IMG/VR virus record: IMGVR_UViG_3300046517_000351
Coordinates: 1 to 40,167 of that record
Direction: 5' to 3' (one strand)
Length of the DNA stretch: 40,167 nt
Source: a virus
Shown here one piece after another: positions 1-40,167 of the stretch. Positions within the stretch are counted from its first letter, which is position 1; every line of letters starts with the position of its first letter. The notes under the pieces were generated by a model. The model made no database searches and was not told the DNA's origin. It was given only the letters and a program-made list of their open reading frames with translations. The translations under genes and the position numbers were made by a program.

Positions 1-127
1 GGAAAGTCACGCTAGATGCCGTCGTGACCGCCGACAGTTCGTTCGACAGTGCCGCCTCGATAGCGACGAAATCCGACCGCCCGTGGACGTGGTCCCGGTG
101 CGCCGCCGTGCCCGCAGACCCGGTCGC
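1..127. repeat. left copy of 127-bp terminal direct repeat (circular overlap)
   Basis: These bases are identical to the last 127 bases of the window. The repeat lies inside a coding frame that stays open when the two ends are joined. A length of exactly 127 is what a de Bruijn assembler with k=127 leaves on a circular contig, so it is most likely an assembly overlap and not a phage terminal repeat. Confidence 0.95.
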
Positions 128-3936: not shown

Positions 3937-6900
3937 CCGCCGGTCCCCGGGTACGGCCCCTCTGGGCTCGTGTACACGCTGTATCGGGCGGTCTGTTCTT
4001 GGGTCAACGCCTGAGCGACCTGCTGCCCGTTGATGTTGATGTACACGGGCGACGGCTGGATCGTGATGTACACCGGCATCGCCTTAGACAACAGACCCTT
4101 CAAGCGGTCGCCCGGCTGTGCGGGCGGGGGTGCAGCGGGAGGTCCAGACGGCGACCCGGGCTGCGCGGGCGGGGCGACCGGTTGGCCATTGTTCCCGGTC
4201 GTCGTGGACGCCCCGCCGCCGAACTTCCGGAACCCGACGAACCTGATCTTGCCGTCCGGCCCGACTTGGTACACGGGCTCGTCCTTGGGCGGTCCGGAGG
4301 AATCGAGCGTGGACTGGATGCGGTTGAAGGCGTCCATGATGTCCTGCGACGTCAGGTTCGTCCCGCGCGCCATCGCTTGCGCCGCTTCCATCGTCATTTG
4401 GTAGCCCTTGGGCAGTTTGGCCACGATCTTGTCGGCCTCTGTCGCGTGGGCTTGCATCGTCTGCCACGCCTTGGTAATCGCCGCCGCGCCCTTGCCCGTG
4501 ATGCCCTCTAGGTTCTTCAACGCTGCCGCCGTCATCTTGAACCCGTCCGGCAGACCTGCGAGGATGGCCTTGAACCCGGACAGGATGCCCGACGCCGCCT
4601 TGTTCACCCCGGCGTTGAGTTGGCTGAACGCTTGCATGATCTGGTCCGCCGAGACTTTGGTCCCGTGCGCCAGAGCCTGTGCCGCTTCCGCCGTCATGTT
4701 GAAGTCTTTGGGCAACTGCTTGACGATGTTCGACGCCTCGGACATGTGCTCTTTTAGCGTCGTCCAAGCCTTGCCGATGCGATCCGCCGAAACGCCCGCG
4801 AGTTTGGCCATCTGCTCCATCGCGGACTTACTCATGTTGAACTTCTCAGGCAGCGACGACAGGAGCGCGTCGATCCGCTGCTGGACGGTCATCCCGCCCC
4901 CGCCACTCGAACCCGCCCCGCCGGGAGCGGACGGGATTTTGAACCTCTTCGGGTTGACGGGCGTGAACTGCGACGACGACGTCGAACCGACGTCCGCCCC
5001 GGTGTACCCCGGCGTGTTGTGCAGGATTTTGTTGATCTGCTTGGTTGTCAGGGTATCCTTCGTGTCCCGGTTCGCCGCCGGAGCGGAGCCCGGCCCGGGG
5101 GCGGTCCCCGCCGGGTGGTTGATTGTGTCCCCGACACCGTTCCACGTCGGGTCGCCCGGGACCTGCGACTGGATCATCACCCGAATCTTTAGGTTCGCGA
5201 GGTCCTGCCCGATAGTGTTCGCAGCGTCAGTCCAGCCGCGCGAGATGGCGAGCGCCTGAGCCGCCGACAGGTCCGCGATCGCTTGCTGCGTCTGGTTCGC
5301 GTCGAGATGCCCGCCAGACAGGATCGCTGAACTCAGGTTGACCAGCGCGTCCGAACTCTGCTTGGCCCCAAACGTGTTGGTAACCAACGACTCCCAAATG
5401 CCCTGATTACCGAGCACCTGATTGAGGTTCGCGAGGTTGCCCAACGCCTGGGTCGCGGTCTGCTGCGCCGCCCCGTCCGCTTGCGCTTGGAGGCTCGTCT
5501 GTGCTTGGTCCCGGGTGTTCATGAAGTCGAACCCGGTCTTGACTGCCTCGCCCACCGCGACGATCGCGCCCCAAATCGGCCCGCCCATCATCACTGCCCC
5601 GGCGATGGTTGCCAGCGGCCCGGCGAACGACTGGACGTCGCCCATCTTCCCGCCGCCGAACATGCCCATCTGAGTTGCGAGCCCCCCGGCGATTAGCCCG
5701 CCGCCGAGCAGTTTCGTCAGCATACCGCCGCCGCCGAGCATGCCGAGCGGTCCGCCCCCGCCGACGCCGCCCTCTTGGACCGTGAACATCGGGTTCGCCG
5801 GGGAGCCACGCCCGAGCAGTCCGCCCATGAGCGATGCGCCCACTTGCCGCGCCATGCCTTGGAACACGTCCCCGGCCACCGACTCGATCGACACACCGAA
5901 CAGGAACTTTACCGTCTTGTCGGCGACGAACCCCTTGACGAGCAGGTCACGGAGCCCCGCTGGAAGGCTGTTCCAGAAACCCATGATCGTGCTAGCGAGC
6001 CCTTGGATCGTAGGCAGCACTTCGTCTTTGAAGAACCCGACGGCGTTCTCGCCGAACGTCATAAGGTTGGCGACCCACTCGTGGATCATCGCCCGGTTCT
6101 GCGGGCTAGCGAACCACTGCGTCAGCCCCTGCGTGACCTTGGTCAACTCCGGGAGCAACTGCGCGCCGACGGTCACCTTCAACGCTTCGAGCGTGGTGTT
6201 GAAGTCGCGCTGCGCCGCCGCGTTCTGTTGGGCGATGGCCACGAGGTCCTGCTGGCCCAAGCCTAGCCGCTGCGCCTCGTCCGCCGCGTCCCCCATGCCC
6301 TTCGATCCGGCTTGCAGCATGGGCAGGAGCGTCTGCCACTGCCGCCCGAGCAGCGCGGTCATCGCCGCGTCCTTCTGGATGGCCGGGATCGACCCGTCGT
6401 TCATGTAGTCGCCGAGCCGCTGCAACATCGATTGCTGGTCGAGCAGATGCCCGGTGCTGTCCGTGATCGACAACCCGTACTGGTCTTGGAACTTCTTGGC
6501 GTCCTGCATCGTCTTGCCGTGCGCCATCATGTTCTTTGCCAGCATGCCCAACACCTTGACCGCCGAGCCCGTATCGACGTTGAAGTGCTGCATCGTCGCG
6601 AGTAACAACTGCGACTGCTGATTTGTCTGCCCTGTTACAGTGGCGATCTGGCCCGCCGTGATGCCGAACTGTTCCGCCGCGTCGATGCTGTCCTTGAACC
6701 CACGAAACACGGCATACGCGCCGCCCGCCAGACCCGCCAGACCCGCGACCCCGGCGACCTGCCCGATCTGCGACCGTAGATGGGTGAGCGCGTTGCCAAA
6801 CCCGGACGTCACCTTGGACGCGCTGAACATGCCCGAACTCGCCCGGGCGGTCTGGTTGTTCAGTCCGGTGAGTTCGCCCTTGACCCGGGCGATGGTAGCG

Positions 6901-16015: not shown

Positions 16016-17383
16016 TCAAGGCGTGAGCGCCATTCGCCGTATGCCGCCCGTGGCCTCCTTTTCGAGGACCGCTTGCACGTCGCGCGCCGCTTGGGTGTCC
16101 ATGCCCGATGCCCACTCCGCGAAAGCCTCCGCCCATCGCTCGCTGAGTTTCGTAGCGCCATACCGCGTGGCGACCGAGACGCGATCCCCAAGGAACGTAA
16201 ACCCGCCGTACGGATCGAGCCACCTGTCCATGACGTGGCCGTACTCGTGGACGAAGATCGACTGCCGGGGAGTCAGCCCGGGCAGGTCAGAGTGCCATCC
16301 GCTGCGGACGTCCCGCGCCCACTGCGTCTCCAACTTGCTACCGCTGAACTTGCCGAACCAGCCGTTGCCGAGCGTCATCCTCGATTGCGCCGTGGCACTG
16401 TACCCCCCGTTCACGTAGGCGTACGTGCCCTTGCCGACGACGTTCTGCGTCTCGACGTTGATGCTTTCCAGCGATGGCGGTTTGATGCCCATGTCGAACA
16501 GTTTCTGGTTGACCCCGTTCACCGCATCGACGATACCCTGCTGGTCGTCCACCTTCATCCGGTCAAAGTTCAGGACCTGATTTGCGAGGTTGTCCAGCGA
16601 TAGCGGCTCGTACACCGGGGCGGGCGGTGCCTCTTCGGGTGCTGGTTCGGGCGGTGCCTCTTCCGGCCCGGGTGCCTCGTCCGGCGTCACGCTGTCCGGG
16701 CTGTCAACCTCCGACGGATCAACGTCTTCGTCCGCCATCTCGTCGAACGACCGCCCACAGTTCGGGTGCTCGATGCTGTTCGCGTCGGCGTCGTCCACCG
16801 TCCAAATCTGCCCGTCCGCCGCCGCGCACTCGTCGTCGTAGTCGGTCCCGTCGTGGACCATGACATAGTGCGTGTCGTTCGCCCGGTACGCCGCGAGGTT
16901 GCCCGCATTCGCCGCGAGCGCAGACTCGGTCCGGGCAATCGTGTCGGCCCGGCCCTCGTACGTCTGCGTCACGTAGGCGGCGATGTCCGAGCGGAATGCC
17001 GCAGACGTGTACGTGTCGAACCCGGGACCGTCCACCGTCCGGGCGATAAACGAGTTCAGCCGGTCGCGTGTCGTGTCGTCGATCCCGGTAACCAGCGCCG
17101 CCCCCCGCGCCATGACGTAGTCGTACGCTTGCGGATTGGCCAGCGACCAAGCCTGGGAACGGACGTCCGCCCGCTGCCACATCAAGCCGGTCTGAGCAAA
17201 CGACGCCTTCTCGGCCTTCGGTCGCACCCGTCCTTGGAACGCCGCATCGAACACGGTGGCCAGTGCGTCCCGGAACTGCTCAAACCATGCGTCGTCGGCC
17301 CGTCCCCACACGTAGTCGAAGTGGCCCGAACTGTTGATCGCCGCTGCGAGGTCCTGAGCCTGTTGCCGGGCTCGTTGGGCTAT
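16016..17383 (-). CDS. MuF-like head protein fused to a zincin metallopeptidase domain
   Basis: The frame contains a MuF domain (RADTIARTESALAANAGN, DGTDYDDECAAADGQIW, HPNCGRSF), a Pro/Glu-rich linker, and a C-terminal zincin: HEYGH (379-383 from the start used here) with the third ligand helix ERWAEAFAEW (about 415-424). MuF proteins are minor capsid proteins bound at the portal and injected or placed inside the head; MuF-linked toxin and enzyme domains are known. No ATG, GTG or TTG lies near the portal stop. The coordinate given uses an ATA forming ATAG with that stop; the first GTG is at 17311. The frame is -1 to the portal and open far upstream, so it is most likely expressed by frameshift at 17425-17431 as a fusion with the portal. 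Confidence 0.8.
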   Translation of the reverse strand: MAQRARQQAQDLAAAINSSGHFDYVWGRADDAWFEQFRDALATVFDAAFQGRVRPKAEKASFAQTGLMWQRADVRSQAWSLANPQAYDYVMARGAALVTGIDDTTRDRLNSFIARTVDGPGFDTYTSAAFRSDIAAYVTQTYEGRADTIARTESALAANAGNLAAYRANDTHYVMVHDGTDYDDECAAADGQIWTVDDADANSIEHPNCGRSFDEMADEDVDPSEVDSPDSVTPDEAPGPEEAPPEPAPEEAPPAPVYEPLSLDNLANQVLNFDRMKVDDQQGIVDAVNGVNQKLFDMGIKPPSLESINVETQNVVGKGTYAYVNGGYSATAQSRMTLGNGWFGKFSGSKLETQWARDVRSGWHSDLPGLTPRQSIFVHEYGHVMDRWLDPYGGFTFLGDRVSVATRYGATKLSERWAEAFAEWASGMDTQAARDVQAVLEKEATGGIRRMALTP

Positions 17384-19590
17384 GAGCGCTCGTAAAGCCC
17401 GGACGGATGAAGCCTTGACTCGACGAAAGGGATGGCGGATGCACCCGCTTTCGCGAACGCTTCCCGGACCTCTTCGGCGTTCGCGGCCTTGGCCAACTCG
17501 ACACCGGGCAGGTCGAACTCCGACTCGAACCGGACGTCCGGCGACTTGCCCGCCCGCAGTGCCGCGAGCGACTTGCGCTGCCACTTGGCCAACTCGGTGT
17601 GAATCGCCTTGCGGTACTGCAACGACTGCATCTCGCGATCCCACGGCCCGGTCGCGTCGGCCACCTGCCCGATGTACGCCGGGATGAACTCCTTGCCCGC
17701 GTGTCGCGCCGCGAGCGAGCGATGCCAGCCGTCCGCGATCTTGTACTTGTTCGCCCCGGGGACTTGGACGAGCACGATCGGCACGACGAGGTCCGACTCG
17801 TCGATCTCGTCCTCGATCCTGTCCACGTTCTGCATGTCCCGCCCGCCCGGACGTCGTGCCATGTCAATCCCCGACAGTAGCACGTGTGGGTCGTAGCGCC
17901 ACGCCGCGTCCTTGACCCAACCGAGCAACTCGGTGGGGTATTGCCGTTCGAGCGAGCGGAGGATGAGCCGATCGAGCCGCGCCTTGTTCACCTGCGACTG
18001 GCCCGGCATGGCACTCGGCCCGTCCGGTGTCGCGCTAGGCTTGCCCGCGTCGATCTGGGTCTGATCCTGCCCCCGGGGTTGAGCGTCGGGGGGGACGACC
18101 CCCGGAGGCAGGACCATGGGTGCGGGCGTCGGATTCGTGATCTCGGACACCGGTACGACCGACTGGCCCGACACGACGGTTGGACCGAGCCCCGGAGGAT
18201 CGATGTCGAGGATGTCTTCCGCGATGTAGTCGCTGGACATGACGCCCATCTGCCAATACTGGAAAGCGCGCTGCGCCTGGGTGAGGCTGTCTTCGGCCTC
18301 TTCCATCTCCGGGAACCCGATCTCCAACTCGGGCTGCTTCAACGGCCCGGCGATGATCTTGTTGAGCACACCCTCCACGTGACGCACGAGCGCCTCGTTC
18401 CGCTCGTCGGACGTCTTGGCTTGGTTGTCGGCGAAGCCCTTCCCGCCGAGTCCGGACGACTTGATCGTGAACCCGAGTTCCATCGGGCTGACGCCGTACG
18501 CGCCACACGCGACCATCATCAACCACTCTTCGACTTCGGGCTTGGGCTCGGGGTTGATCTGCATGAGTTGCGAGCCCTGCCCGCCCGGGACGAACCGGAG
18601 CGACTGCCGCTGTGCGTCGTTACCCGCGAGGATACCGTCGAACACCTTCTGCAACTCGGCGATCTGCTGGTTGCCCCACGACTCCGGGACCGCATACAGC
18701 GTGGACGCCGGGATAGACCCGTCGGTGAAGTACGCCATGTCGAGCGTCTGTCGGCGGAGCGCCCGGTTCGTCGCGAGCAGGATACGCTCTGTCGGCGGGT
18801 GTCCGTAGGGCGAGCCAGCGTACGTCCAGAACGGGTCATACGACATCTGCGTGGTGGAGAACGCGGTGTTGTTGTCCGCCGTGACGAGCCGCTGGAAGAA
18901 CGTCCACGGCATGCCCTTGATGATCTGCCGGTACGCGGCCATCGGCGGTTGCGGGATGCGCCCCCACAGGTCGATCAGCGGGAGGATCGTCGTGCCGTCG
19001 ATGACTTCGACACCGTACAGGTCGCCGCCCTTGGTGAAGCGCAGATACAGCGTCGGCGTGTCGTACATAAACACTTGGTCAAGGTAGGCGTAAATCCACG
19101 AGCCCCACTGCCGCTCCTGATCCGGGGACTCGAAGAAACCGGTCAACTTGTTCGCGGGTTCGGCCAGTCGCTCTTGCCGGGTCAGACGGTCTGCGCGCTT
19201 CTCACCCTCGACCTTGCGCGGGCGGATGACCCACTCCAAGCGGCGAAAGTCGTCGATCCGCTTCTCCCGGGCGAGATTGGCTACATCGTAGTTGCGGCCC
19301 AACGCGTCGAGTGTGGCGAACGTGATGGGCTCGTAGCCCCGGGGACGGGTTTGGACATTGTACCCGACGGGGTAGTCCCACCGCCGGGGCTCGACCTCTT
19401 CCGGGTGCTGTGGTCCGATGGGCAGTCCGGGACCAAGCGACGACACGACGTTCGGCCCGCCGAGCGCCGCCGTCAGTTCGGACAGGTCGGTAACCCGCGC
19501 CGCCTCCCCGAACCCGCCCGGCATAAGTGCGCCGGGCGGAGCAAACGACGACGGGGCGAGCGCCTTAGCGAGCCTCTCCCGGACTCCCAC
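17380..19590 (-). CDS. portal protein with C-terminal ParB/sulfiredoxin-like domain
   Basis: This 736-aa protein starts at GTG right after the previous stop (TGAGTG). Residues 70-480 have portal features: FATLDALGRNYDVANLAREKRIDD..EW at the front, YDTPTLYLRF, a GMPWTFFQRLV helix, and MMVACGAYGVSPMELGF, the well-conserved portal segment. After a Pro-rich linker (about 490-530), residues 551-643 form an extra domain with PIVLVQVPGANKYKIADGWHR (DGWHR at 620-624) and IPAYIG, the ParB N-terminal/sulfiredoxin-like fold. The last 90 residues are helical and end SGLYERS. The portal forms the DNA channel; the extra domain may bind or cut DNA or nucleotides. An in-frame C_CCU_UUC near codon 720 may send some ribosomes into the MuF frame. 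Confidence 0.88.
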   Translation of the reverse strand: MGVRERLAKALAPSSFAPPGALMPGGFGEAARVTDLSELTAALGGPNVVSSLGPGLPIGPQHPEEVEPRRWDYPVGYNVQTRPRGYEPITFATLDALGRNYDVANLAREKRIDDFRRLEWVIRPRKVEGEKRADRLTRQERLAEPANKLTGFFESPDQERQWGSWIYAYLDQVFMYDTPTLYLRFTKGGDLYGVEVIDGTTILPLIDLWGRIPQPPMAAYRQIIKGMPWTFFQRLVTADNNTAFSTTQMSYDPFWTYAGSPYGHPPTERILLATNRALRRQTLDMAYFTDGSIPASTLYAVPESWGNQQIAELQKVFDGILAGNDAQRQSLRFVPGGQGSQLMQINPEPKPEVEEWLMMVACGAYGVSPMELGFTIKSSGLGGKGFADNQAKTSDERNEALVRHVEGVLNKIIAGPLKQPELEIGFPEMEEAEDSLTQAQRAFQYWQMGVMSSDYIAEDILDIDPPGLGPTVVSGQSVVPVSEITNPTPAPMVLPPGVVPPDAQPRGQDQTQIDAGKPSATPDGPSAMPGQSQVNKARLDRLILRSLERQYPTELLGWVKDAAWRYDPHVLLSGIDMARRPGGRDMQNVDRIEDEIDESDLVVPIVLVQVPGANKYKIADGWHRSLAARHAGKEFIPAYIGQVADATGPWDREMQSLQYRKAIHTELAKWQRKSLAALRAGKSPDVRFESEFDLPGVELAKAANAEEVREAFAKAGASAIPFVESRLHPSGLYERS
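17425..17431 (-). other. candidate -1 frameshift heptamer C_CCU_UUC joining portal and MuF
   Basis: The portal codons read ATC CCT TTC, so the X_XXY_YYZ pattern C_CCT_TTC is exactly in frame. After a -1 slip the ribosome reads CGT CGA GTC AAG and continues through the MuF-zincin frame with no stop. The product would be about 1,190 aa (722 portal plus 469 MuF-zincin residues). Confidence 0.55.
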
Positions 19591-23424: not shown

Positions 23425-23735
23425 TTCACGGCCTCGGTGGATGAGAGGGCGGCCTTACCACGGGCGACAATGCCGTCGTCGTCCTCGCCGTCATCGGCCC
23501 ATTGAACGAACTCAGTGAGTGCCGTCCGCAACCTCTCGACCTCGGCAGCGTCGGAGTGGCGGGCTTCGGCTTCGATGTTCGCGATGTGTTCGGAGATAGC
23601 GCGGTGGTACTTGGCGTCCCAGTGCGGGTCTTTCGATGCGTCCGCGCGCCAGCCCGCTACTCGGTCAAGCAGGCTCTTGCCCGCTTTCGTAGTCGGTGCA
23701 GCCACGGCATCCTCTGTCACTTTGCCCTCAGTCAT
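23421..23735 (-). CDS. hypothetical protein
   Basis: This 104-aa protein is predicted mostly helical and acidic. It includes AGKSLLDRVAGWRADA, HWDAKYHRAISEHIANIEAE and RLRTALTEFVQWADDGEDDD. It starts at an ATG overlapping the stop of the dUTPase fusion gene (ATGA at 23732-23735) and ends on the start of the zinc-finger gene. The position in a nucleotide-metabolism operon is suggestive. I do not see the ExxE/ExxD pattern of MazG-type pyrophosphohydrolases, nor an HD motif, so no enzyme can be assigned. Confidence 0.65.
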   Translation of the reverse strand: MTEGKVTEDAVAAPTTKAGKSLLDRVAGWRADASKDPHWDAKYHRAISEHIANIEAEARHSDAAEVERLRTALTEFVQWADDGEDDDGIVARGKAALSSTEAVK

Positions 23736-24706
23736 ATCGAGCGCAGAGCCCCCTGTAATGACAACATGAAAGCGATGGCTTGCTTGAAAGACTCGACCTC
23801 GACAACGCCCGCCCGCCGGAGCGACTGCGCGAACAGCCCGTCCCCGAGATTGCCGACGATGACCATCGCGCCGCCGACGAGGAACCGGCCCCAAATCTCG
23901 ACCGGGGTGCCGAACGACACTTGCACCCGGGCGTCGTACTCGAACACTGCCCAATCCCGTGACATGCACTCGACCATGTTCCGAGCGATCGTCTCGTCGG
24001 GTGTCTCGTCGAACCGCTTGCGGCATGCCGGGCAGTACACGTCGAAGAACGGGTGCGGGTCGGACATCTGGCCCGCCACGATGAACCGGCGATGTCTGTC
24101 CTCGGGGTTCTTGTCCACGTAGTCGATCGGACCGCCCAAGTACACCGTCGCGGAGGTCACGGGGAGCCCCGACGAGGTATCTCCTTGCCCGTTTGTATTC
24201 TCGGACGTATCCGTGTGGGTATCGGGCTCTTCCGGGGCTTCCGTGGGCTTCGGCTGATAGGCCGTGTCCAGCACCCACTCGCGATGTCCAGTCGAGCCGA
24301 ACCCCTTCGCGCCCCGGTCGGACGACGCGACCTCCGAAACCTCGACGATCTCGGCCCGGAGCACAGGCGCGAGGATCAACTGCGCGAGTCGTGTGCCGTG
24401 CTCGATGTGGATGTCGTGCCCGTTGCGATTGGTCACGTAGATGAACAACTCGCCGCGATAGCCCTGATCGATGACGCCCTCGTTGACGAACAGTCCCCGC
24501 TTGCGCAGTGTCGAACTCCGGCCCGTGATCCGGCCCCACACGCCCTCCGGCAGTTGGACCTTCAAGCCTGTGGGCAGGTCGATCGACGCGCCCGGGGCGA
24601 TGACCCACTCGTTGACCACCGCGAGGTCCATGCCCGCGTCCCCCGGGTAGCCGTAAGCGGGAATCTCCGCATCGATCAACTCGCGCTGAACCATGATCTC
24701 AACCAT
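23732..24706 (-). CDS. dut: dUTPase fused to nucleoside 2-deoxyribosyltransferase-like domain
   Basis: This 324-aa fusion is counted from the ATG that overlaps the kinase stop by 8 bases. Residues 1-142 are a trimeric dUTPase with all five motifs: PGDAGMDL (21-28), GRSSTLRKRGL (62-72), GVIDQGYRGEL (78-88, catalytic Asp80), GTRLAQLIL (104-112) and RGAKGFGSTG (131-140). A Thr/Glu/Pro linker (150-183) leads to residues 187-324, an N-deoxyribosyltransferase-like fold: VYLGGPID (188-195), SRDWAVFEYD (249-258) and SFGTPVEIW (264-272), with Glu270 as candidate nucleophile. The first domain hydrolyses dUTP to dUMP. The second probably cleaves or exchanges bases on deoxynucleosides or deoxynucleotides. 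It sits with the kinase and PurZ-like genes, so a shared dNTP-remodelling pathway is likely. Confidence 0.88.
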   Translation of the reverse strand: MVEIMVQRELIDAEIPAYGYPGDAGMDLAVVNEWVIAPGASIDLPTGLKVQLPEGVWGRITGRSSTLRKRGLFVNEGVIDQGYRGELFIYVTNRNGHDIHIEHGTRLAQLILAPVLRAEIVEVSEVASSDRGAKGFGSTGHREWVLDTAYQPKPTEAPEEPDTHTDTSENTNGQGDTSSGLPVTSATVYLGGPIDYVDKNPEDRHRRFIVAGQMSDPHPFFDVYCPACRKRFDETPDETIARNMVECMSRDWAVFEYDARVQVSFGTPVEIWGRFLVGGAMVIVGNLGDGLFAQSLRRAGVVEVESFKQAIAFMLSLQGALRSI

Positions 24707-25229
24707 CGAACGCTTGCCCCTTCTCACCGATCAGGTACCGGTACACGCTGCGCGCTACGTCCTGTCGGGTGCGATACGTCGTGTTGATCGCGCCCTCCCA
24801 CCCGACGAACTTGAACACCCACCCTCCGGCGATGTCGATCTGCAACAGGTCGCCCTGCTCGCGGATGCGTTTCTCGGCGAACTGGTCGTCCTCCCGGCCC
24901 CGCCGGTACAGTCGGTCCCGGGCGATGTCCGGGCGACACGTCAACAGGATCGTCTTCGTGTCGTCGGGGAGCAGCAATGACTGCGGCTGATTGCGCGGCC
25001 AACCATCGAGGATGAACTCCCGGTCCGACCACTCCGCCATCGCCGCGACGAACGCAGCGCGCATCGTCGCTTCGTCTGCCAAGTCACCTCGGGCGAGCGC
25101 GCCTGGGTCAAGCGCCCGGGCTAGGTCTCCCGCCGTGAACACTGGCCGATGGAGCCGCTCCGACAGGTCCGCCGCGAGGGTCGTCTTGCCCGAGCCCGGG
25201 ATGCCGATTAGGGCGATTACTCGGTTCAT
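24699..25229 (-). CDS. adenylate-kinase-like (d)NMP kinase
   Basis: This 176-aa P-loop kinase starts at an ATG overlapping the stop of the PurZ-like gene (ATGA at 25226-25229). It shows GIPGSGKTT (9-17), an NMP-binding-type TAGDLAR (32-38), the adenylate-kinase signature FILDGWPRNQPQ (72-83), and CRPDIARDRLYRRGREDDQ (98-116), corresponding to the arginines of the lid region. Residues beyond 130 (GGWVFKFVGWEG) differ from ordinary adenylate kinases. Its likely substrate is a deoxynucleoside monophosphate. Next to a PurZ homologue it could phosphorylate 2-aminodeoxyadenylate or dAMP; the substrate is inferred, not visible. Confidence 0.82.
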   Translation of the reverse strand: MNRVIALIGIPGSGKTTLAADLSERLHRPVFTAGDLARALDPGALARGDLADEATMRAAFVAAMAEWSDREFILDGWPRNQPQSLLLPDDTKTILLTCRPDIARDRLYRRGREDDQFAEKRIREQGDLLQIDIAGGWVFKFVGWEGAINTTYRTRQDVARSVYRYLIGEKGQAFDG

Positions 25230-26275
25230 GTCCAGTAGTCTCCGTGTGCGCACCGACTGCTTGCCGTCGCGACCTGCCACGCCCCGTCTGCCCGGGGACC
25301 GGTACCGAACCCGAGCACGGGTGCGCCGCTCGTTTCCTCGATGTAGTCCACGAGGTCGCGGATTTCTGGTTTGAGCATGAACGGCCCATAATCCGTCGTC
25401 CCGCGCAACTCCGGTGCGAGGTAGTCGGCGAACGTCAGGAACGTGCCACACGGCCCGTTGATTGCCGCCGCCCGGCGATACAGCGCGTCGTCCCAAAAGC
25501 CTACCCGCCGGACGCGATTAGTAACCGTGGTCCGCTCTTCTTCCTGCCCGAGTTCAGACCACGTCGTCTCGCGCGCCATCGGCCCCGAGTTGCCAGCGAC
25601 CCGGATCGGGAACGTCCGGGCGACGAGGTACGTGTGCCGGAGGAACCGGGGAGCGACGCCCGCATCGGCGAGCAACTGCGCCACATTGGTGTCAGCCGAC
25701 GTGCAGTATGGCCAGTCGCCGTGATGCAGCGATAGCGCCGCGCCCTGCGTACCCTCGAGCATTACCTCTTGATCGTCCACGAGCGCCTGATACAACAGGT
25801 CCGCCGTGTGCGCCTCCGGATGGATGCGGTCCCACGGGTCGCCCGCTTTCCACTCGACGTCCTGCACCAGCGGGTGCCCCGTCCGGAGGATTTTGGCAAT
25901 GCGCGCCGCGCCCACGCCCTCCTGCGTCGAACCGATGGCCTCCCACATGCCTTTCTCGGCTGCTTGCATCTCGTGGTTGACGACGACCGCTTGGGTGTCC
26001 ACGATGACCTCCACCCCGGGCAGGTCGCGCAACTCGGACGCGAGCAGTTCGAGATCGACCACCGCCCCGGCCCCGATGACCAGCCGACATTCCGGGTTGA
26101 TCCAAGCGCACGGGACGCCGCGCATCTTGTACACCCGCCCGTCGTGCCACAGGCTGTGTCCGGCGTTCGGTCCCCCGGTACGGACTGCCACGTCGAACCG
26201 CCCGGCGATTGCCGCCGCGATGACGCCCTTGCCCTCCGAACCGTGCTGCGCCCCAATAAGTGCTGTTGCTGTCAC
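25226..26275 (-). CDS. purZ: adenylosuccinate synthetase homologue of PurZ type
   Basis: This 349-aa enzyme (GTG start, GTGA overlap with the nuclease gene) keeps the PurA/PurZ framework: GAQHGSEGKG (8-17), GGPNAGH (34-40), STQEGVGAARIAKI (116-129), EGTQGAALSLHHG (174-186), CTSADTN (191-197), NRVRRVGFWD (253-262) and GFGTGP (322-327). The catalytic Asp of PurA (in GDEGKG) is Ser13 here. That change marks PurZ, which uses dGMP and aspartate to make the precursor of 2-aminoadenine (Z). The phage may therefore replace adenine by Z in its DNA. No DatZ, MazZ or DpoZ gene is recognisable, so the extent of replacement is open. Function from family knowledge plus the diagnostic residue. Confidence 0.88.
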   Translation of the reverse strand: MTATALIGAQHGSEGKGVIAAAIAGRFDVAVRTGGPNAGHSLWHDGRVYKMRGVPCAWINPECRLVIGAGAVVDLELLASELRDLPGVEVIVDTQAVVVNHEMQAAEKGMWEAIGSTQEGVGAARIAKILRTGHPLVQDVEWKAGDPWDRIHPEAHTADLLYQALVDDQEVMLEGTQGAALSLHHGDWPYCTSADTNVAQLLADAGVAPRFLRHTYLVARTFPIRVAGNSGPMARETTWSELGQEEERTTVTNRVRRVGFWDDALYRRAAAINGPCGTFLTFADYLAPELRGTTDYGPFMLKPEIRDLVDYIEETSGAPVLGFGTGPRADGAWQVATASSRCAHGDYWT

Positions 26276-26559
26276 TCCAACTCCTTCTCAATCGACCGCC
26301 GATCGGACGGACGCCACACCCCGGCGTCGGCCCCCGCCCTTGTCAGTCTATTCAACCACGCCGACTGCGCCCCCGTCAAGACGCCGCCTTCGGTCTTCAC
26401 TTCACGGAACAGCACCCGCTCCCGGACGAGCACCAGATCGGGGAACCCGGGGTTCGACCGTCTGCTGTCGTAGGTGTGGTAGATCGCCCATCGCCGGATG
26501 CCCGCTAGGTCGATGATCCACGCCTGGAAATCGGCCTCAGATTCTCGAACAGAAAGCAC
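26272..26559 (-). CDS. VRR-NUC family nuclease
   Basis: This 95-aa protein is taken from the GTG at 26559, the first start that leaves only the compact VRR-NUC domain (longer in-frame extensions are shadow of the upstream gene). It begins ESEADFQAWIIDLA and contains HTYDSRRSNPGFPDLVLV (the PD of the active site), FREVKTEGG (the ExK), GAQSAWLNRLTRAG and VWRPSD, all standard for stand-alone phage VRR-NUC enzymes, thought to resolve branched DNA. It lies upstream of and overlaps the PurZ-like gene by 4 bases. Confidence 0.88.
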   Translation of the reverse strand: MLSVRESEADFQAWIIDLAGIRRWAIYHTYDSRRSNPGFPDLVLVRERVLFREVKTEGGVLTGAQSAWLNRLTRAGADAGVWRPSDRRSIEKELE

Positions 26560-26749
26560 AGAGGACGCGATGTGGCGGGATGCGGGTGAGACAGCGCGGC
26601 CCCGGGCAAGGACGGCTGTAAATGAACGGCTCGCGGGGGAGCGGATCGTACGGGACGCCATGCGCCCTGAACATACCCCGCTCCGTCAGGCGATATGGGC
26701 TCTGCGGGTGCTGCTGCCGCTGCATCACTGGCCCGGTGCGAGCCGCCAT
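26537..26749 (-). CDS. small zinc-ribbon-like protein
   Basis: This 70-aa basic protein (TGATG junction with the gene before it) ends with CPGPRC and, after 14 residues, CAFC, a possible four-cysteine zinc site. The rest (QRQQHPQSPYRLTERGMFRAHG) has no recognisable fold. Its last 23 bases overlap the nuclease start. Codon use resembles its neighbours, supporting a real gene, but the assignment is weaker than for the genes around it. Confidence 0.55.
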   Translation of the reverse strand: MAARTGPVMQRQQHPQSPYRLTERGMFRAHGVPYDPLPREPFIYSRPCPGPRCLTRIPPHRVLCAFCSRI

Positions 26750-27852: not shown

Positions 27853-28368
27853 CTACTCTGCTATCTTTCGCCCCGCTTTCTTGCCTTCTAAGATCGACGG
27901 ATCGACCCCGGCGTCCACCAACGCCTGTTTCGGGTCTAACCTCTCCGGCACTCGTGCGCTAGCACCCGCGTCGTCCGTGGGTATCGTCCGTGTCGTTTCG
28001 TGTCCCACTGTGGGAGTCTGTGGGAGTCTGTGGGAGCGCTTGCCCGCCATGTACCCCCGCTTGTACTCCGGGCTGTCACTCGGACCACGCGCGACGGGTT
28101 GATGCTCGCCATATCTCCGGATGCCGATCTGCGGCCCGTCGTCTTCGGCGTCGAGCATGTGCCGCATCTGCGCCACAGCCTTCTCCGGATCGGTCACGCC
28201 CTCCTTGCGGAGCAACCGAATCAGTTCGCCCTCCGTTTGGAACGGCACCCCATCGCGAGCCGCTTGCAGGAGGTACGCCTTGATCCACGCCGCTTGCACC
28301 GCCTCCGGCATCAGCGACCAGCCCTCGTCGTCCAGTAGCCCGACGTCGAGCCTAATCCACTTACCCAT
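27853..28368 (-). CDS. possible replication protein (replisome-organiser-like N-terminus)
   Basis: This 171-aa protein is taken from the second ATG (28368), which has GAGAG 7 bases upstream; the first ATG at 28374 is too close to it. The N-terminus (KWIRLDVGLLDDEGWSLMPE, then VQAAWIKAYLLQAARDG) with a following LIRLLRKEG and a histidine-rich turn resembles the N-terminal winged-helix region of phage replication organisers. The second half is polar and Pro/Thr-rich and carries the 10-bp DNA repeats. No helicase or primase gene is present, so this could recruit host replication proteins. The assignment is tentative. Confidence 0.5.
   Translation of the reverse strand: MGKWIRLDVGLLDDEGWSLMPEAVQAAWIKAYLLQAARDGVPFQTEGELIRLLRKEGVTDPEKAVAQMRHMLDAEDDGPQIGIRRYGEHQPVARGPSDSPEYKRGYMAGKRSHRLPQTPTVGHETTRTIPTDDAGASARVPERLDPKQALVDAGVDPSILEGKKAGRKIAE
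28003..28036. repeat. 10-bp tandem repeats with adjoining palindrome (origin candidate)
   Basis: TGGGAGTCTG occurs twice in tandem (28011-28020, 28021-28030) with a partial third copy (TGGGAG at 28031). The first unit overlaps a palindrome TCCCACtGTGGGA (28003-28015). A further direct repeat TCGTCCGTG is at 27971 and 27984. Iterons inside a replication gene recall the lambda origin in gene O. Confidence 0.4.
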
Positions 28369-28675
28369 TGACATCTCTCAGGTACTTGCGCTGCAAAGCG
28401 AGCGCATGCTTCGACGTCCCCCACCCGTCGAGATGGTGATGCGAACACAGGATCAACAGGTGCGCCCGGTCCGTGATCCGCCGCCCGCCCGCCTCTTTGA
28501 CGTGCTGCCGGGTGATGACCCCGGAGCACTGATCGATCGGGTGGCAGCGGGCTTCGAGGTACGGGGCGACACACCCGCCGTCCCGCTCTAGGACGAAGTC
28601 GTACTCGGCTCGCTCGCTTGGGGTGACGCGGTGTGCTCGTCGCCGGGGAGTTCGCCCGTCAGGAGTGCATGCCAT
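28361..28675 (-). CDS. HNH endonuclease-like protein
   Basis: This 104-aa protein starts at an ATG with AGAGG 9 bases upstream; this makes an 88-bp overlap with the gene before it, but no later start keeps the domain. It contains GGCVAPYLEARCHPIDQC (metal-binding cysteines), TRQHVKEAGG, then DRAHLLILCSHHHLDGW, giving the His-Asn/His-His arrangement of HNH nucleases. In phages such small HNH proteins often assist DNA packaging or act in recombination. Here it sits with the recombination genes rather than terminase. Confidence 0.78.
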   Translation of the reverse strand: MACTPDGRTPRRRAHRVTPSERAEYDFVLERDGGCVAPYLEARCHPIDQCSGVITRQHVKEAGGRRITDRAHLLILCSHHHLDGWGTSKHALALQRKYLRDVNG

Positions 28676-29466
28676 AGTTGCTGCCTCTGCTCGTCTGTCA
28701 ACTGCCGGAGCGTGTGCCCCTCGCCGAACATCGTCCGGCCCGTCTTGGTGATCGTCGCGGACGGGATGAACTTCTCCCGGGCGAGTTCGATCAGGACCTC
28801 GTACGTCATCGCCCGGATTTGCTCGTCGGTCTTGCCGTCCAGACTGCGCGGGACAGTGGTCGTAGCGTCCACGGGGAGCGCAGACGATGCCCCTTCTTTG
28901 GCCGCGACGGGCGGGGGGGCATCTGTGGGCGTATCCGCGTCCGGCTGGTCTTCCGTGGGCTCGTCTGCGGTCTGCTTGCTACGAATCTCGTCCGCCGTCG
29001 CGATGCCGCCCCGAGTAGCCAGCCCGACTGCCGCGATTGCCCGGCCCCAAGCGGACGTCTCGGCGTTCTCCAACTCGGAGCCGAGAGTGTACGGCGTCTG
29101 GCCGGGCAGGACCATCCACGAATGACCGACTCCCGGTAATGGGTCGTCCGGCGTCCGGAATGCCATCCCCTCGACCACGATCAGCCCGATGGCGACCGGG
29201 ATGTCCTTGACCTTGGTGTTGCCCCGTTGGTCGCGGGTCTGCCGCTGTTGGACCTCGAACCCGTCAATCTGCGAGAGTTTGTGGATGCGCGACGACAGCC
29301 GCCCGTCCGGATACTTGGCGTAGAACTCTTGTATCCGCTTGTCAACCTCGACGTAATCGCCCCGGTCGTCGCTCTTCCGTTGGAACGACCGCCCGTGTGT
29401 CTGCTGCCCCCGGTTTGGGTTACCGCCGAACTGTGGCGGTTCGTCGTAACCGTCGTATCCGCTCAT
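28588..29466 (-). CDS. ERF/RecT-like single-strand annealing protein
   Basis: This 292-aa protein starts at an ATG overlapping the exonuclease stop (ATGA at 29463-29466). Residues 30-165 show YVEVDKRIQEFYAKYPDGRL, an IPVAIGLIVVEGMAF strand, and the signature TLGSELENAETSAWGRAIAA with GLATRGGIATADEIRSKQ, the pattern of ERF-superfamily annealing proteins encoded beside exonucleases. Then comes an acidic Pro/Thr-rich linker and a C-terminal helical domain (EVLIELAREKFIPSATI, RQLTDEQRQQLWHALL). Together with the exonuclease it would form a strand-annealing recombination pair, as lambda Exo and Beta do. Confidence 0.75.
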   Translation of the reverse strand: MSGYDGYDEPPQFGGNPNRGQQTHGRSFQRKSDDRGDYVEVDKRIQEFYAKYPDGRLSSRIHKLSQIDGFEVQQRQTRDQRGNTKVKDIPVAIGLIVVEGMAFRTPDDPLPGVGHSWMVLPGQTPYTLGSELENAETSAWGRAIAAVGLATRGGIATADEIRSKQTADEPTEDQPDADTPTDAPPPVAAKEGASSALPVDATTTVPRSLDGKTDEQIRAMTYEVLIELAREKFIPSATITKTGRTMFGEGHTLRQLTDEQRQQLWHALLTGELPGDEHTASPQASEPSTTSS

Positions 29467-30494
29467 TTGGTCTCCTTCCGCTTGACTAGAAACGGTCGCG
29501 CTGCCGCGCCCTGCATAGTGTACAACGACACCACGGTGTCGAAAAGACCCGGGTCTAGGTGTGCCGCTGCTGGACCGTCGCGCCAGTCCGGGTACAGCCG
29601 CCGGACGACCGCGAGCGTGTTCCACAGTGTGGTCGCCACGGCCTCCCATCCGACTTTCTCGGGAGCCTTGGACAGACGCCAATGTACAGTCCAGTCGGGA
29701 GCGTCTGCCCCGGCGTGTTCGCCGATGACCATCTTGGCCTGATTGATCGAGACGCCCAACTCGCCCTCCAACTCGGCGAGCGTCTCCTTGGTGCCGAGAA
29801 TCTCGTGGACGATGCGGTCCAGAGCCGTGTCCGGGGCGACCACTAGCCGCGACTCGGGCTCATGCTGCCGGGGGAACACGAGGTCAGGACGATCGCGGCC
29901 TTCGGGCGGGACCTGCCCCGTCAGGACGTACCGCTGCCAGAAATCGACGACCCGCTCTTCGAGGTCGATCTGGTAACCGAGATCGGACTCCATCCGGTAC
30001 GTCCGGAAATCGCCGCCGGGGAGCAGGACCGACACGTCGCACCACGGCAACCCGGTGATCGCGAGGTACTGCTGGACTTGGGGGATGTAGTGCTCCGGGA
30101 CGCCCGCCTCCCAAACCGCCGGGTCTTGGGCGGTCTTACCCTCCCACAATCCCGCGATGCCCACCGGGGTGAACACGAAGCGGTCCGGGGTGCCGAACTG
30201 GATGCCGTTCTCGTGCCACAGTCGGCCCGGCGATTGCTCGACCTTGACCCGGGCTGTCCGCTCGTACTCCATCGCGACCAGCGGTTCGAGCAGGATGCCC
30301 CACCGCATCGCCGCAGTCTGCGCCCGGGGTGCCCACCCGGGGTGATGTGTCTTCTCCTGCCAGACGTCCAGACGGTCGCGCCATGGCGACACGCCCAAGA
30401 TCGCCGCCGCGTCCGAGCCGCCTACTCCCTGATCACGCCCATCCTTTACCCCCGTTGCACTCTCGACGCGGGGGGATGTCGGGGAGCCACTCAT
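29463..30494 (-). CDS. YqaJ-like viral recombinase exonuclease
   Basis: This 343-aa protein (start ATG 30494, overlapping the upstream gene by 62 bases) has the YqaJ/lambda-exonuclease fold. GGSDAAAILGVSPW is followed by AAMRWGILLEPLVAMEYE (first catalytic Glu), GTPDRFVFTP (catalytic Asp), GLWEGKTAQD (ExK) and HYIPQVQQYLAITG (Gln motif). The C-terminal 100 residues are helical (DRIVHEILGTKETLAELEGE). It digests 5' ends to create single strands for the annealing protein that follows. Longer upstream reading in this frame is low-complexity shadow of the preceding gene. Confidence 0.88.
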   Translation of the reverse strand: MSGSPTSPRVESATGVKDGRDQGVGGSDAAAILGVSPWRDRLDVWQEKTHHPGWAPRAQTAAMRWGILLEPLVAMEYERTARVKVEQSPGRLWHENGIQFGTPDRFVFTPVGIAGLWEGKTAQDPAVWEAGVPEHYIPQVQQYLAITGLPWCDVSVLLPGGDFRTYRMESDLGYQIDLEERVVDFWQRYVLTGQVPPEGRDRPDLVFPRQHEPESRLVVAPDTALDRIVHEILGTKETLAELEGELGVSINQAKMVIGEHAGADAPDWTVHWRLSKAPEKVGWEAVATTLWNTLAVVRRLYPDWRDGPAAAHLDPGLFDTVVSLYTMQGAAARPFLVKRKETK

Positions 30495-30783
30495 ACGCTC
30501 CGCCGAACTGGATGAGTTCGCCGCCGTAGGCTCGACAGGTTCGACCGCAGACGTGGTGCCACTCTCGACGGCAGGACCAGCAGACTCGGGTGGCGTCGGC
30601 GGTGACCATTCCGCAGTAACAGCCGCAGTCGCACGGGACCGGGACGGCCTTGTGGCTCTTGGCACTAGACTTCTCCTGAACAGTCGTCGGCGTCACCCAC
30701 TGTGTCGCTTCCCACAGATAATCGGGAGACGCATCGACGGCGACCCGGAGTTTTAGTCCAGACCGCCGTCGAGGGATCGGCAT
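30433..30783 (-). CDS. Cys-rich hypothetical protein
   Basis: This 116-aa protein begins in a TAATG junction with the gene before it. A basic start (PRRRSGLKLRV) and an aromatic stretch (DYLWEATQWV) precede CDCGCYCGMV (51-60), VCWSCRREWHHVC (67-79) and RTCRAY, eight cysteines and two histidines in 40 residues, enough for two zinc sites. The C-x-C-x-C core recalls the GHDA module of its neighbours, without the PGHDA part. Function unknown. Confidence 0.65.
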   Translation of the reverse strand: MPIPRRRSGLKLRVAVDASPDYLWEATQWVTPTTVQEKSSAKSHKAVPVPCDCGCYCGMVTADATRVCWSCRREWHHVCGRTCRAYGGELIQFGGAYEWLPDIPPRRECNGGKGWA

Positions 30784-31238
30784 TACGCCTGGGCTGCTTC
30801 CGCTGCCTTGGCTCGCTCTGCCGCGTGGAATCGTGCGTCGTGACCGGGGAGGAACCGTCCGCCCTTAGTCGTGCCGCCGCATCCGCAACCGCAGTCCTGT
30901 CCGGCCTTCGCCTTTCGCACTGCCTTCGGCTTGGCAACCGCTGCCTCTGCCGCCTTGTCCGATGCCGTGTCGGTCTTACCCGCCGCTTGCATCTTCTTGA
31001 TCTGCGCCGCCGTCAAACCGACTGCGGCTGGTGCATCCTTGGCCACTGCTGCGTAGCCCTCCTGTACTTGGCCCCGATCGTAAAACATCGGGGAGGGTTC
31101 TCTTGGCCCCGCCGGGTGCGTCTTCGGCAGTCCGACGTGACCGCTGTTGGGACAGTATAACTGAGCGGTCCCCTTTAAGTCAAGGAGCAACCCGCCATCA
31201 ACCGGGCAGAGCGGCCCCCATTCTCGCGCTGCTGCCAT
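30783..31238 (-). CDS. GHDA-module protein (copy 1)
   Basis: This 151-aa protein starts at an ATG 7 bases after GGAGG. The N-terminus has a possible zinc pair (LCPVDGGLL, YCPNSGHVG). An Ala/Lys-rich helical middle (60-112) leads to CGCGCGGTTKGGRFLPGHDA (116-135) and a basic end. The same block, CxCGCGG-x3-6-RF[LV]PGHDA, appears in the proteins at 34267-35004 and 35978-36778. The three may bind the same partner or nucleic acid. The Cys and His residues suggest a zinc fold. Function unknown. Confidence 0.72.
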   Translation of the reverse strand: MAAAREWGPLCPVDGGLLLDLKGTAQLYCPNSGHVGLPKTHPAGPREPSPMFYDRGQVQEGYAAVAKDAPAAVGLTAAQIKKMQAAGKTDTASDKAAEAAVAKPKAVRKAKAGQDCGCGCGGTTKGGRFLPGHDARFHAAERAKAAEAAQA

Positions 31239-34266: not shown

Positions 34267-35004
34267 TTAGAACCGGAAGAACTCTGCGAGCGCCTTCGGC
34301 CCGGGGAGTGTGTTGGCATGTCGGCCCTTATGACCGGCTGGCTTGATGCATTTGCTGGTTGGCCCGGTTGACCGGGTGCGGAACTGGACGCCGCAGTCGG
34401 TCTTGACGCCCGGCAGGACCGCTGGCTTGATCGCCTTCGCGTTGTGCCCGGCGATGACTGCGGCGGCATCGTGGTCGCCGACCGGGTGTTCGCCCCGGTT
34501 CTGCGCTTCAATCTCCCCGCGCAGCGCCTTGACGACGGACGCGGCCTTCGCGTCGTGGCCCGGGAGGAACCGGCTCTTCTTGCCCTTCGGCGAGCCGCCG
34601 CAACCGCACTGGCAGCGCTTGATGCCCGCCTCGTTCAGCCCCGCCGCGACCGCCTGTCCGACCAGCGCGTCCGCGATGTACGGGCGGGAGTGCCCACCGA
34701 ACTCGTCCATGTTGACCTGAACTGCCTTCATGAGCGTGTTCATGCAGGGGGCTTGGTGCATGTTGCCCCACGTCCAGCACCCGTTCTCGTAGGCGGACTC
34801 GCTGTACGGGTCTTTGACGCCGAACGCTGACGCCCACTCGGTGTCGAGCGCCACGAGCGCGTCGATGATCGTCTCGCCCTCGAACGTCTCGACGAACACG
34901 TCCCCGAGCCGCTTCTGCTGCTTGGCGATGTCCGCGCACCCGGCCTTGTGGAACTCCGGGTCGCCGTTCTCGTTCTTGTTGATGACCGTGATCTTGACTG
35001 CCAT
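34267..35004 (-). CDS. GHDA-module protein (copy 2)
   Basis: This 245-aa protein is preceded by a complete early promoter and GAAAGGAG. The N-terminal half is unlike copy 1 (ITVINKNENGDPEFHKAGC, DVFVETFEGETIIDALVALD, then TWGNMHQAPCMNTLMKAVQV). Residues 131-155 hold the module CQCGCGG-x7-RFLPGHDA. The C-terminal part has two more cysteines and KCIKPAGHKGRHANTLPG, another possible metal site. It could act in DNA or RNA binding; no known domain was recognised. Confidence 0.72.
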   Translation of the reverse strand: MAVKITVINKNENGDPEFHKAGCADIAKQQKRLGDVFVETFEGETIIDALVALDTEWASAFGVKDPYSESAYENGCWTWGNMHQAPCMNTLMKAVQVNMDEFGGHSRPYIADALVGQAVAAGLNEAGIKRCQCGCGGSPKGKKSRFLPGHDAKAASVVKALRGEIEAQNRGEHPVGDHDAAAVIAGHNAKAIKPAVLPGVKTDCGVQFRTRSTGPTSKCIKPAGHKGRHANTLPGPKALAEFFRF

Positions 35005-35977: not shown

Positions 35978-36778
35978 TTAGAACGGCAGGGCTGCGTCCG
36001 CTGCCTTGGCTGCTGCCTTGTCCGACTGCAACTGCGCATGCTGCTCCTTGGAGTCCCGCGACTGCGCCTTCACCTGCGCCGCTTGCGCCTTCGCTGCGGC
36101 ATGCTCGGCGACCGTCGCGAACCCGGCCTTGATGGCCGCGTGGTAGCGGGCGTCGTGACCCGGGACGAACCGACGAAGCGTCAGCCCGCCGCAACCGCAC
36201 GTGCACGGCTTGGGCGTCAGCATGACCGGACGAGCCGCCTTGATCGCGACCTTCGCGGCCTTGGTGTCGCCCGCTGCGATGGCGTCGATCATCGCCGAGA
36301 TGAACATCGCCCCGCCGATGGCGTGGTTGTCGCCACCGCACCGGCAGTCGCACGGGCTGTCTGGCGATGCGAACATGCACTCCCCGACACACGGGGTGAG
36401 CGACACGAGCCGCGTCCCCGCCCACGTCGGACCGGGCGTCCGCTCGTCTGTCTCGTCGTTGACGTCGAACTCGCCGAACACGCCCCGGAGGGCAGTCAGC
36501 GCGTCCGCGATCTGTGGCCGCTCGACCTTGACCGACGTCGGCTCCGGCGTGGGTTCCTGCTCGATCAGGTACGCCTTGATCTTGTCGAGCAGGTCGGTGA
36601 CTGCTGCCAGTCGGGACGTGCCCTTGCCCACGATTTCCAGCGGATCGGTCAGGGTCTCGACGACCACTAGCGCCGTCTGGCCTTTGCCCCCGCCGCCAAA
36701 GATCACGCCGTCCTGCGGGATGTCCGTCAGGTCGGTGATCTCGTTGAGCACGAGCCCGATGTTGTACTCCTGTGCCAT
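35978..36778 (-). CDS. GHDA-module protein (copy 3, double Cys cluster)
   Basis: This 266-aa protein has its own early promoter and GAAAGGAGG. The first 75 residues are a compact alpha/beta domain (IFGGGGKGQTALVVVETL). Cysteines at 130-149 (TPCVGECMF, SPCDCRCGGDNHAIGGAM) form a first cluster, followed by a helix, then PCTCGCGGLTLRRFVPGHDA (191-210) and a long Ala/Lys/Gln helical tail ending AADAALPF. Of the three copies it has the most complete module, with a second CxCxCGG upstream. A zinc-binding nucleic-acid- or host-factor-binding role is likely. Confidence 0.74.
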   Translation of the reverse strand: MAQEYNIGLVLNEITDLTDIPQDGVIFGGGGKGQTALVVVETLTDPLEIVGKGTSRLAAVTDLLDKIKAYLIEQEPTPEPTSVKVERPQIADALTALRGVFGEFDVNDETDERTPGPTWAGTRLVSLTPCVGECMFASPDSPCDCRCGGDNHAIGGAMFISAMIDAIAAGDTKAAKVAIKAARPVMLTPKPCTCGCGGLTLRRFVPGHDARYHAAIKAGFATVAEHAAAKAQAAQVKAQSRDSKEQHAQLQSDKAAAKAADAALPF

Positions 36779-39760: not shown

Positions 39761-40167
39761 GGCTTGGTGCCGAGCAGGGTCGCCTTCAAGCCGATCGCCG
39801 TGCCGTCGCCGATCTGGGTGCAGGTTATGAGGATCACATCGTCGTCGGCGAACGCGCTAACCGAGATCACCGGGGGAGTCGCTGCCGTGACACTTGTGAG
39901 TTCGGTGTTGTCAATCGTGATCGTCGTGGACAGGACCGTCGTGCCGTTCTTCCGGACATCGACGGTGAGGATCGACCCGGTCGCCTGTGCGGTCTTTAGG
40001 CTTGCGCGAACTCCCGTCAGGGTGAACGCGCATGGAGCGCGGAAAGTCACGCTAGATGCCGTCGTGACCGCCGACAGTTCGTTCGACAGTGCCGCCTCGA
40101 TAGCGACGAAATCCGACCGCCCGTGGACGTGGTCCCGGTGCGCCGCCGTGCCCGCAGACCCGGTCGC
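39757..40167 (-). CDS. C-terminal part of the tail fibre/zincin protein (continues from 1-1987)
   Basis: This is the end of the gene cut by the window. From 40040 the frame encodes RAPCAFTLTGVRASLKTAQA and a beta-rich end (TVLSTTITIDNTELTSVTAA, ISVSAFADDDVILITCTQIG) finishing at LLGTKP. Bases 40041-40167 repeat the left edge and are counted once in the circle. The last 97 residues resemble a compact beta domain of a fibre tip (hydrogen-bonded strands with ITCTQIGDG), a plausible trimerisation or receptor-binding head. Confidence 0.85.
   Translation of the reverse strand, partial: ATGSAGTAAHRDHVHGRSDFVAIEAALSNELSAVTTASSVTFRAPCAFTLTGVRASLKTAQATGSILTVDVRKNGTTVLSTTITIDNTELTSVTAATPPVISVSAFADDDVILITCTQIGDGTAIGLKATLLGTKP
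40041..40167. repeat. right copy of 127-bp terminal direct repeat
   Basis: These bases are identical to 1-127. Removing one copy gives a circle of 40,040 bp with an intact 757-codon tail gene across the join. Confidence 0.95.

Follow-up and report, generated by a model that had tools for sequence, protein, structure and literature searches.

Our analysis of the window, i.e. the whole 40167-base record IMGVR_UViG_3300046517_000351 (IMG/VR) from an uncultivated virus of bacteria, suggests that a complete tailed-phage genome encodes a module for synthesis of the Z base (2-aminoadenine), in which purZ, an NMP kinase gene and a dutZ-dmtZ fusion follow each other as overlapping minus-strand genes and the host replicase would insert Z. 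We put the probability of this reading at roughly three in four. It builds on enzymes identified from their homology, clade and pocket residues and from the order of their genes, as well as on genome completeness; from these we infer the activities, the kinase substrate, the use of a host polymerase and the presence, full or partial, of Z in the DNA. As for completeness, a repeat search found an exact 127-base direct repeat at both record ends (1..127 and 40041..40167), consistent with assembly overlap of a circular map and without further copy inside the window, and a 756-aa tail ORF runs on across the joined ends. The record therefore covers the complete circular map of a tailed phage, 40040 bases (~40.04 kb) in length. 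Its GC content is ~65% along the whole length and the called genes lie on the minus strand, with tail, tape measure, head, portal and terminase genes followed by a small early region. A DNA-level search among cultured phages returned no close relative of the window, and PADLOC gave nothing useful on it.

The purZ-type gene (25226..26275, minus strand; 349 aa) has a GTG start, an AGGAG-type ribosome-binding site and its stop at 25226, and the plus strand of the same span is interrupted. The motifs GAQHGSEGKG, TGGPNAGH, CTSADTN and RRVGFWD can be read in its product, in agreement with the initial annotation, which had placed the ORF here and named the GSEGKG loop together with GGPNAGH, TSADTN and RRVGFWD. 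The protein matches PF00709 (E 1.9e-46), its best PHROG is annotated '2-aminooxy adenylosuccinate synthetase' (6e-68) and its best PDB match (4.6e-50) is 7VF6, the PurZ0 of Gordonia phage Archimedes (PMC12884076); against the NCBIfam PurZ model it scores 246 bits (4.7e-73), which is under the formal cut-off of 300. Judged by this homology, the ORF encodes a real adenylosuccinate-synthetase homologue and is not a chance reading frame.

To map the pocket, the dGMP- and donor-site residues listed for S-2L PurZ (PMC8342488) were transferred by alignment of the window protein with its counterparts from S-2L, phiVC8, Archimedes, P. horikoshii and E. coli. In the P-loop GSEGKG (residues 12-17; 26225..26242, minus strand), Ser13 replaces the catalytic Asp of PurA, and Ser116 and Thr249 stand where PurA has Thr and Gly; all three residues match PurZ/PurZ0, as do Val226 and the PurZ-type insertion that follows (AGNSGPM). 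At the donor-base position the window has Asp284 (codon 25424..25426, minus strand), an Asp shared with PurA and PurZ0, whereas PurZ carries Asn/Gln (Q308 in S-2L); the structural meaning of this residue comes from PMC8342488 and known PurA structures. Since the guanine-binding residue is retained as Asp284, we predict GTP as the donor, in line with PurZ0 and unlike ATP-using PurZ; pocket and donor site together predict an enzyme that would convert dGMP and aspartate to dSMP at the expense of GTP. In this context, the wording of section 24 of PMC12884076, with its 'respectively', assigns a preference for ATP to PurZ0 and for GTP to PurZ, while the donor-site residues seen here suggest the reverse.

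We built two PurA/PurZ trees, a quick one with 69 sequences and a careful one with 49. PurA falls outside in both, and the viral Ser-type proteins form a group (support 99 and 93/97 in the quick and careful trees, respectively) that holds PurZ (100/100), PurZ0 (100/99) and a third clade including the window (100/99), the branching order of the three not being settled by the tree. This third clade has 13-15 members, namely the window, its sister L007 (IMGVR_UViG_3300042484_002499) and other uncultivated viral contigs, with no cultured phage in the set. A 2022 NCBI survey covering 147 sequences from phages distinguished no groups other than PurZ and PurZ0 (PMC12884076). On tree placement, the window protein would thus represent a third PurZ-type clade, a member of neither PurZ nor PurZ0 and made up, here, of uncultivated viruses only. 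From canonical PurZ it differs in having no Asn/Gln at the donor-base position, despite its Ser, and in lying outside the PurZ clade; with PurZ0 it shares the Ser P-loop and the GTP-site Asp but not the clade. Trees and alignment gave neither a catalytic Asp13 nor placement in the PurA clade. The initial annotation had asked for such a tree and had named a position inside cellular PurA with IMP-specific residues as evidence against its proposal. The tree puts the protein outside PurA and with the viral PurZ group, with Ser13, Ser116 and Thr249 as in PurZ, yet the protein sits in neither of the two known phage groups. A role as PurA in stepping up normal adenine synthesis during infection, although compatible with the shared fold and family and with the retained GTP-site Asp, seems highly improbable to us: the catalytic Asp13 has become Ser, Ser116 and Thr249 are those of PurZ, the protein lies outside the PurA clade with full support, and pairing with a gene set predicted to destroy dATP would be self-defeating for adenine synthesis.

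The view of the initial annotation that the Asp-to-Ser exchange is a signature of phage PurZ did not survive a wider search. Scanning 84,980 prokaryote genomes with a pattern favouring GSE, and hence Ser-biased, produced 244 relatives, and the Ser is found in 78 of the 79 chromosomal loci retrieved in this way. Full-length canonical PurA was also present in all ten of these Ser-type genomes that were checked. We therefore rejected Ser13 as sole proof of PurZ: with Ser common in bacterial chromosomal paralogues the signature alone misleads, P-loop Ser alone should not serve to call Z phages, and it is clade and context that decide. For the window, clade, pocket residues and gene neighbourhood do support the PurZ-type enzyme that had been proposed. 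Many of the chromosomal loci (L102-L178, e.g. L103, L108, L110, L120, L121) encode an N-terminal P-loop kinase fused to the Ser-type PurZ-like domain in a conserved operon, with a Peptidase_M78 (ImmA/IrrE-like) and a Macro protein upstream (up to 39 of 79 loci) and DUF7002 downstream (65/79), which resembles an undescribed nucleotide-based system, perhaps of defence. Loss of the inter-subunit Arg131 was rejected as a mark of these fusions, as the Arg is merely shifted by one residue. A second chromosomal group comprises short Ser-type PurZ-like proteins (L147 from Lokiarchaeota, L155 from Thalassolituus, L167 from a haloarchaeon, and L139, L151, L165, L166, L172, L177), whose genes adjoin a gene of one shared family; the three of these neighbours that were scanned have a DCD/dUTPase-like domain, making this a cellular purZ-dut-like pair.

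Could the window protein be a Ser-type paralogue of this kind with another, non-DNA function? That such proteins are common in bacterial chromosomes without known Z-DNA, and that they have a kinase partner and Ser P-loop there too (e.g. L103, L108, L120), speaks for it. We nevertheless consider it unlikely: the chromosomal fusions form a clade of their own (100/100), carry the kinase fused at the N-terminus, adjoin Peptidase_M78/Macro and DUF7002 genes and show no DutZ/DmtZ, while the window protein groups with phage PurZ and neighbours dutZ/dmtZ-type genes.

These neighbours, a kinase and a fusion of Dut and deoxyribosyltransferase domains directly downstream of purZ, had been overlooked in the initial annotation, and they bear on its remark that the pathway may be different here. 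Recent work on PurZ0 phages (PMC12884076) has shown that two other enzymes take the place of DatZ and MazZ there: DutZ has the dUTPase fold and cleaves dATP and dGTP, and DmtZ has the deoxyribosyltransferase fold, degrades dAMP and is able to form dZMP from the Z base. The window appears to follow this DutZ/DmtZ route and not that of DatZ/MazZ, with a dutZ in the genome (on a small comparison set) and a dmtZ-family (NDT) domain fused to it. The fusion gene (23732..24706, minus strand; 324 aa) shares 8 bases with the kinase gene and was assigned from domain searches, a structure model and trees. Its N-terminal part (24272..24706) is a dUTPase domain (E 7e-31). Among phages, those with PurZ0 match it best (45-49% identity); the other phages sampled further down the hit list reach at most 38%. 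In a Dut tree it falls inside the PurZ-phage Dut group (100/98), apart from 11 other dUTPases (ten from phages plus E. coli Dut), in a small comparison set with long branches. Its motif GRSSTLRK follows the pattern GRSSxLRK common to many PurZ-phage Duts, which we regard as a lead only. An Asp-to-Gly change in Dut motif 3 was rejected as a DutZ mark; it occurs in some ordinary dUTPases as well. The window domain itself could be a plain dUTPase.

The C-terminal domain of the fusion (23735..24166; VYLGGPID ... GTPVEIW) had no match in a Pfam search. A profile made from the window and L007 NDT copies alone found 36 NDT-type ORFs in phage purZ loci, among them L007's own, the others with E-values down to ~1e-8. 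An AlphaFold2 model (pLDDT 82) gave purine 2'-deoxyribosyltransferase, MilB and DNPH1 as best fold matches, the same folds as reported for DmtZ (PMC12884076). The catalytic Tyr, Asp and Glu are kept and the Asn is displaced by one residue; the match to DmtZ is remote (12-24% identity). Window NDT and DmtZ families also matched profile to profile (E 5e-52), but the two profiles had taken up the same members; we set this result aside as circular and rely on the non-circular profile search and the fold matches. From sequence and model, we thus regard the protein as a DutZ-clade dUTPase domain joined to a DmtZ-like deoxyribosyltransferase domain, both with predicted activities.

Between purZ and the fusion, and overlapping both, sits the gene for an adenylate-kinase-like P-loop NMP kinase (24699..25229, minus strand; 176 aa; 4-base overlap with the purZ stop). 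According to domain searches adenylate kinases are its closest family, although the structure model is poor (pLDDT 66). The only other holder among the viral relatives fetched is L007, which has it in the same place; cultured phages gave a single weak match, a Bacillus phage adenylate kinase (E 1e-5). We propose that this candidate dZMP (or dGMP) kinase may phosphorylate dZMP. That bacteria have Ser-type PurA proteins fused to a kinase domain supports a functional tie between the two, not the exact substrate. If the proposal holds, the phage would bring its own enzyme for the step from dZMP to dZTP, which has so far been attributed to the host.

As the initial annotation had said of DatZ, MazZ and DpoZ, none is visible: DatZ and MazZ/DUF550 had no six-frame match in the window and none in Pfam scans, and the Z-type DNA polymerase I (DpoZ-1) that marks PurZ0 phages was not found in it either. 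Searches of the complete genome for DNA polymerase families A, B and C-alpha and for PrimPol were negative, which means DpoZ is truly absent. The largest early genes encode up to ~325 aa, too small for anything beyond a small primase. A circular relative, G002 (43.2 kb, 127-base overlap), and the record of L023 likewise yielded no polymerase, so its absence is a real trait of some members and not a gap; eight other third-clade records do have Pol A. In L009 (11025-13466), DNA polymerase A directly follows purZ and carries a fused N-terminal uracil-DNA glycosylase domain plus 3'-5' exonuclease. A DUF5664/dGTP-PPase-type gene was sought in the window and not found, and the window has no phage PurB (adenylosuccinate lyase). 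Domain searches did detect, on the minus strand, a VRR-NUC nuclease/Holliday-junction-resolvase-like gene directly upstream of purZ (26272..26661) and a recombination pair (28588..30308) made up of a phrog_23738 protein (28588-29466), whose homologue lies upstream of purZ in L007, and a YqaJ/RecE-like exonuclease (29463-30308). Position and sequence appearance suggest that a small early protein without family match (27853..28368, minus strand) may be a replication organiser. The RecE-like exonuclease and VRR-NUC genes would fit replication by host machinery.

The following working may be envisaged for the Z module. The DutZ domain would cut dATP to dAMP and dGTP to dGMP, which would deplete the dATP of the cell and supply PurZ with substrate. 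PurZ would join dGMP to aspartate using GTP to give dSMP. Host adenylosuccinate lyase would release dZMP, and the adjacent kinase, or host guanylate kinase, would raise it towards dZTP. The DmtZ domain would destroy dAMP and could move its deoxyribose phosphate onto free Z base. With no phage polymerase at hand, the host replicase would put Z opposite T because dATP is low. On this gene content Z is likely to occur in virion DNA, and the window would work like a PurZ0-type Z module from outside the PurZ0 clade and without DpoZ. Several points speak against it: the PurZ score below the NCBIfam cut-off, the missing Pol I in contrast to PurZ0 phages, the displaced Asn and remote match of the DmtZ-like domain, and the poor kinase model.

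How far Z would replace A is a related matter. As a sub-case of the Z-module reading, dZTP may be made but Z take only a small part of A, the host replicase accepting both without phage selection. We see this as possible, if somewhat short of an even chance. The complete genome holds no DpoZ or other polymerase, and E. coli expressing a Z-cluster without Z-polymerase incorporates Z into its own DNA alongside A (PMC8342488). Yet in S-2L, whose PrimPol does not discriminate (PMC8342488), removal of dATP brings about full replacement (PMC8342488, PMC8065100), and an equivalent gene set for dATP depletion is present in the window. A decayed pathway, or Z nucleotides that only disturb the host or its defences while phage DNA keeps normal A, could be suspected from the lack of a polymerase and the one displaced catalytic residue. 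To our minds it is even a little less probable than the paralogue scenario above, as the three genes, which overlap, are all intact and have been conserved in L007, and the pocket residues are kept. Going further, the window may stand for a third, previously unrecognised phage PurZ lineage with a self-contained purZ/dedicated dZMP kinase/DutZ-DmtZ cassette, where the host replicase builds Z-DNA through the nucleotide pool alone; we offer this tentatively, leaning slightly against it. If true, neither a Z-selective polymerase nor even one encoded by the phage is needed for a Z genome, and this is the question still facing the engineering of Z-DNA in cells. With only three genes, the cassette would also be a very compact candidate for transferring Z synthesis to a laboratory bacterium.

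Among known systems, PurZ0-type phages (Gordonia Ghobes/Archimedes, Arthrobacter Wayne/Glenn; PMC12884076) resemble the window in Ser P-loop, GTP-site Asp, dutZ and dmtZ-type genes near purZ and a genome of ~40-45 kb. In contrast to them, the window PurZ forms a separate clade (100/99), the fusion runs Dut-NDT and not NDT-Dut as in Wayne and Glenn, and there is an extra NMP kinase but no DUF5664, phage PurB or Pol I, whereas a Z-type Pol I is present in the PurZ0 phages covered by our analysis and by PMC12884076. Canonical PurZ phages (phiVC8, S-2L, SH-Ab 15497; PMC8342488) share the Ser P-loop, dGMP pocket and dATP-depletion logic, but the window has Asp284 in place of Asn/Gln (hence GTP and not ATP as predicted donor) and neither DatZ nor MazZ. 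S-2L, too, is without Pol I but has a PrimPol, which was not detected in the window. L007 has the same purZ-kinase-dut-ndt order (identities ~50%, 35%, 47% and 32%, respectively), a phrog_23738 gene and no Pol A, B, C or PrimPol that could be found; unlike the window it is a 33.3-kb fragment with separate dut and ndt genes and a purB. A gene family without Pfam match (Parvaparticeps 4436-5338, Hiyaa 68, Ghobes 51), which adjoins purZ in most relatives (e.g. L003, L005, L006, L008, L010 and many viral contigs), was sought in the window and not found; it is absent from L007 as well. Elsewhere in the window, the portal protein (17380-19590, minus strand) has a ParB_N-like domain at its C-terminus, and three minus-strand early genes (30783-31088, 34267-35004, 35978-36778) have in common a short motif, CxCGCGG...RFLPGHDA, which is likewise present in Ghobes and Glenn genes.
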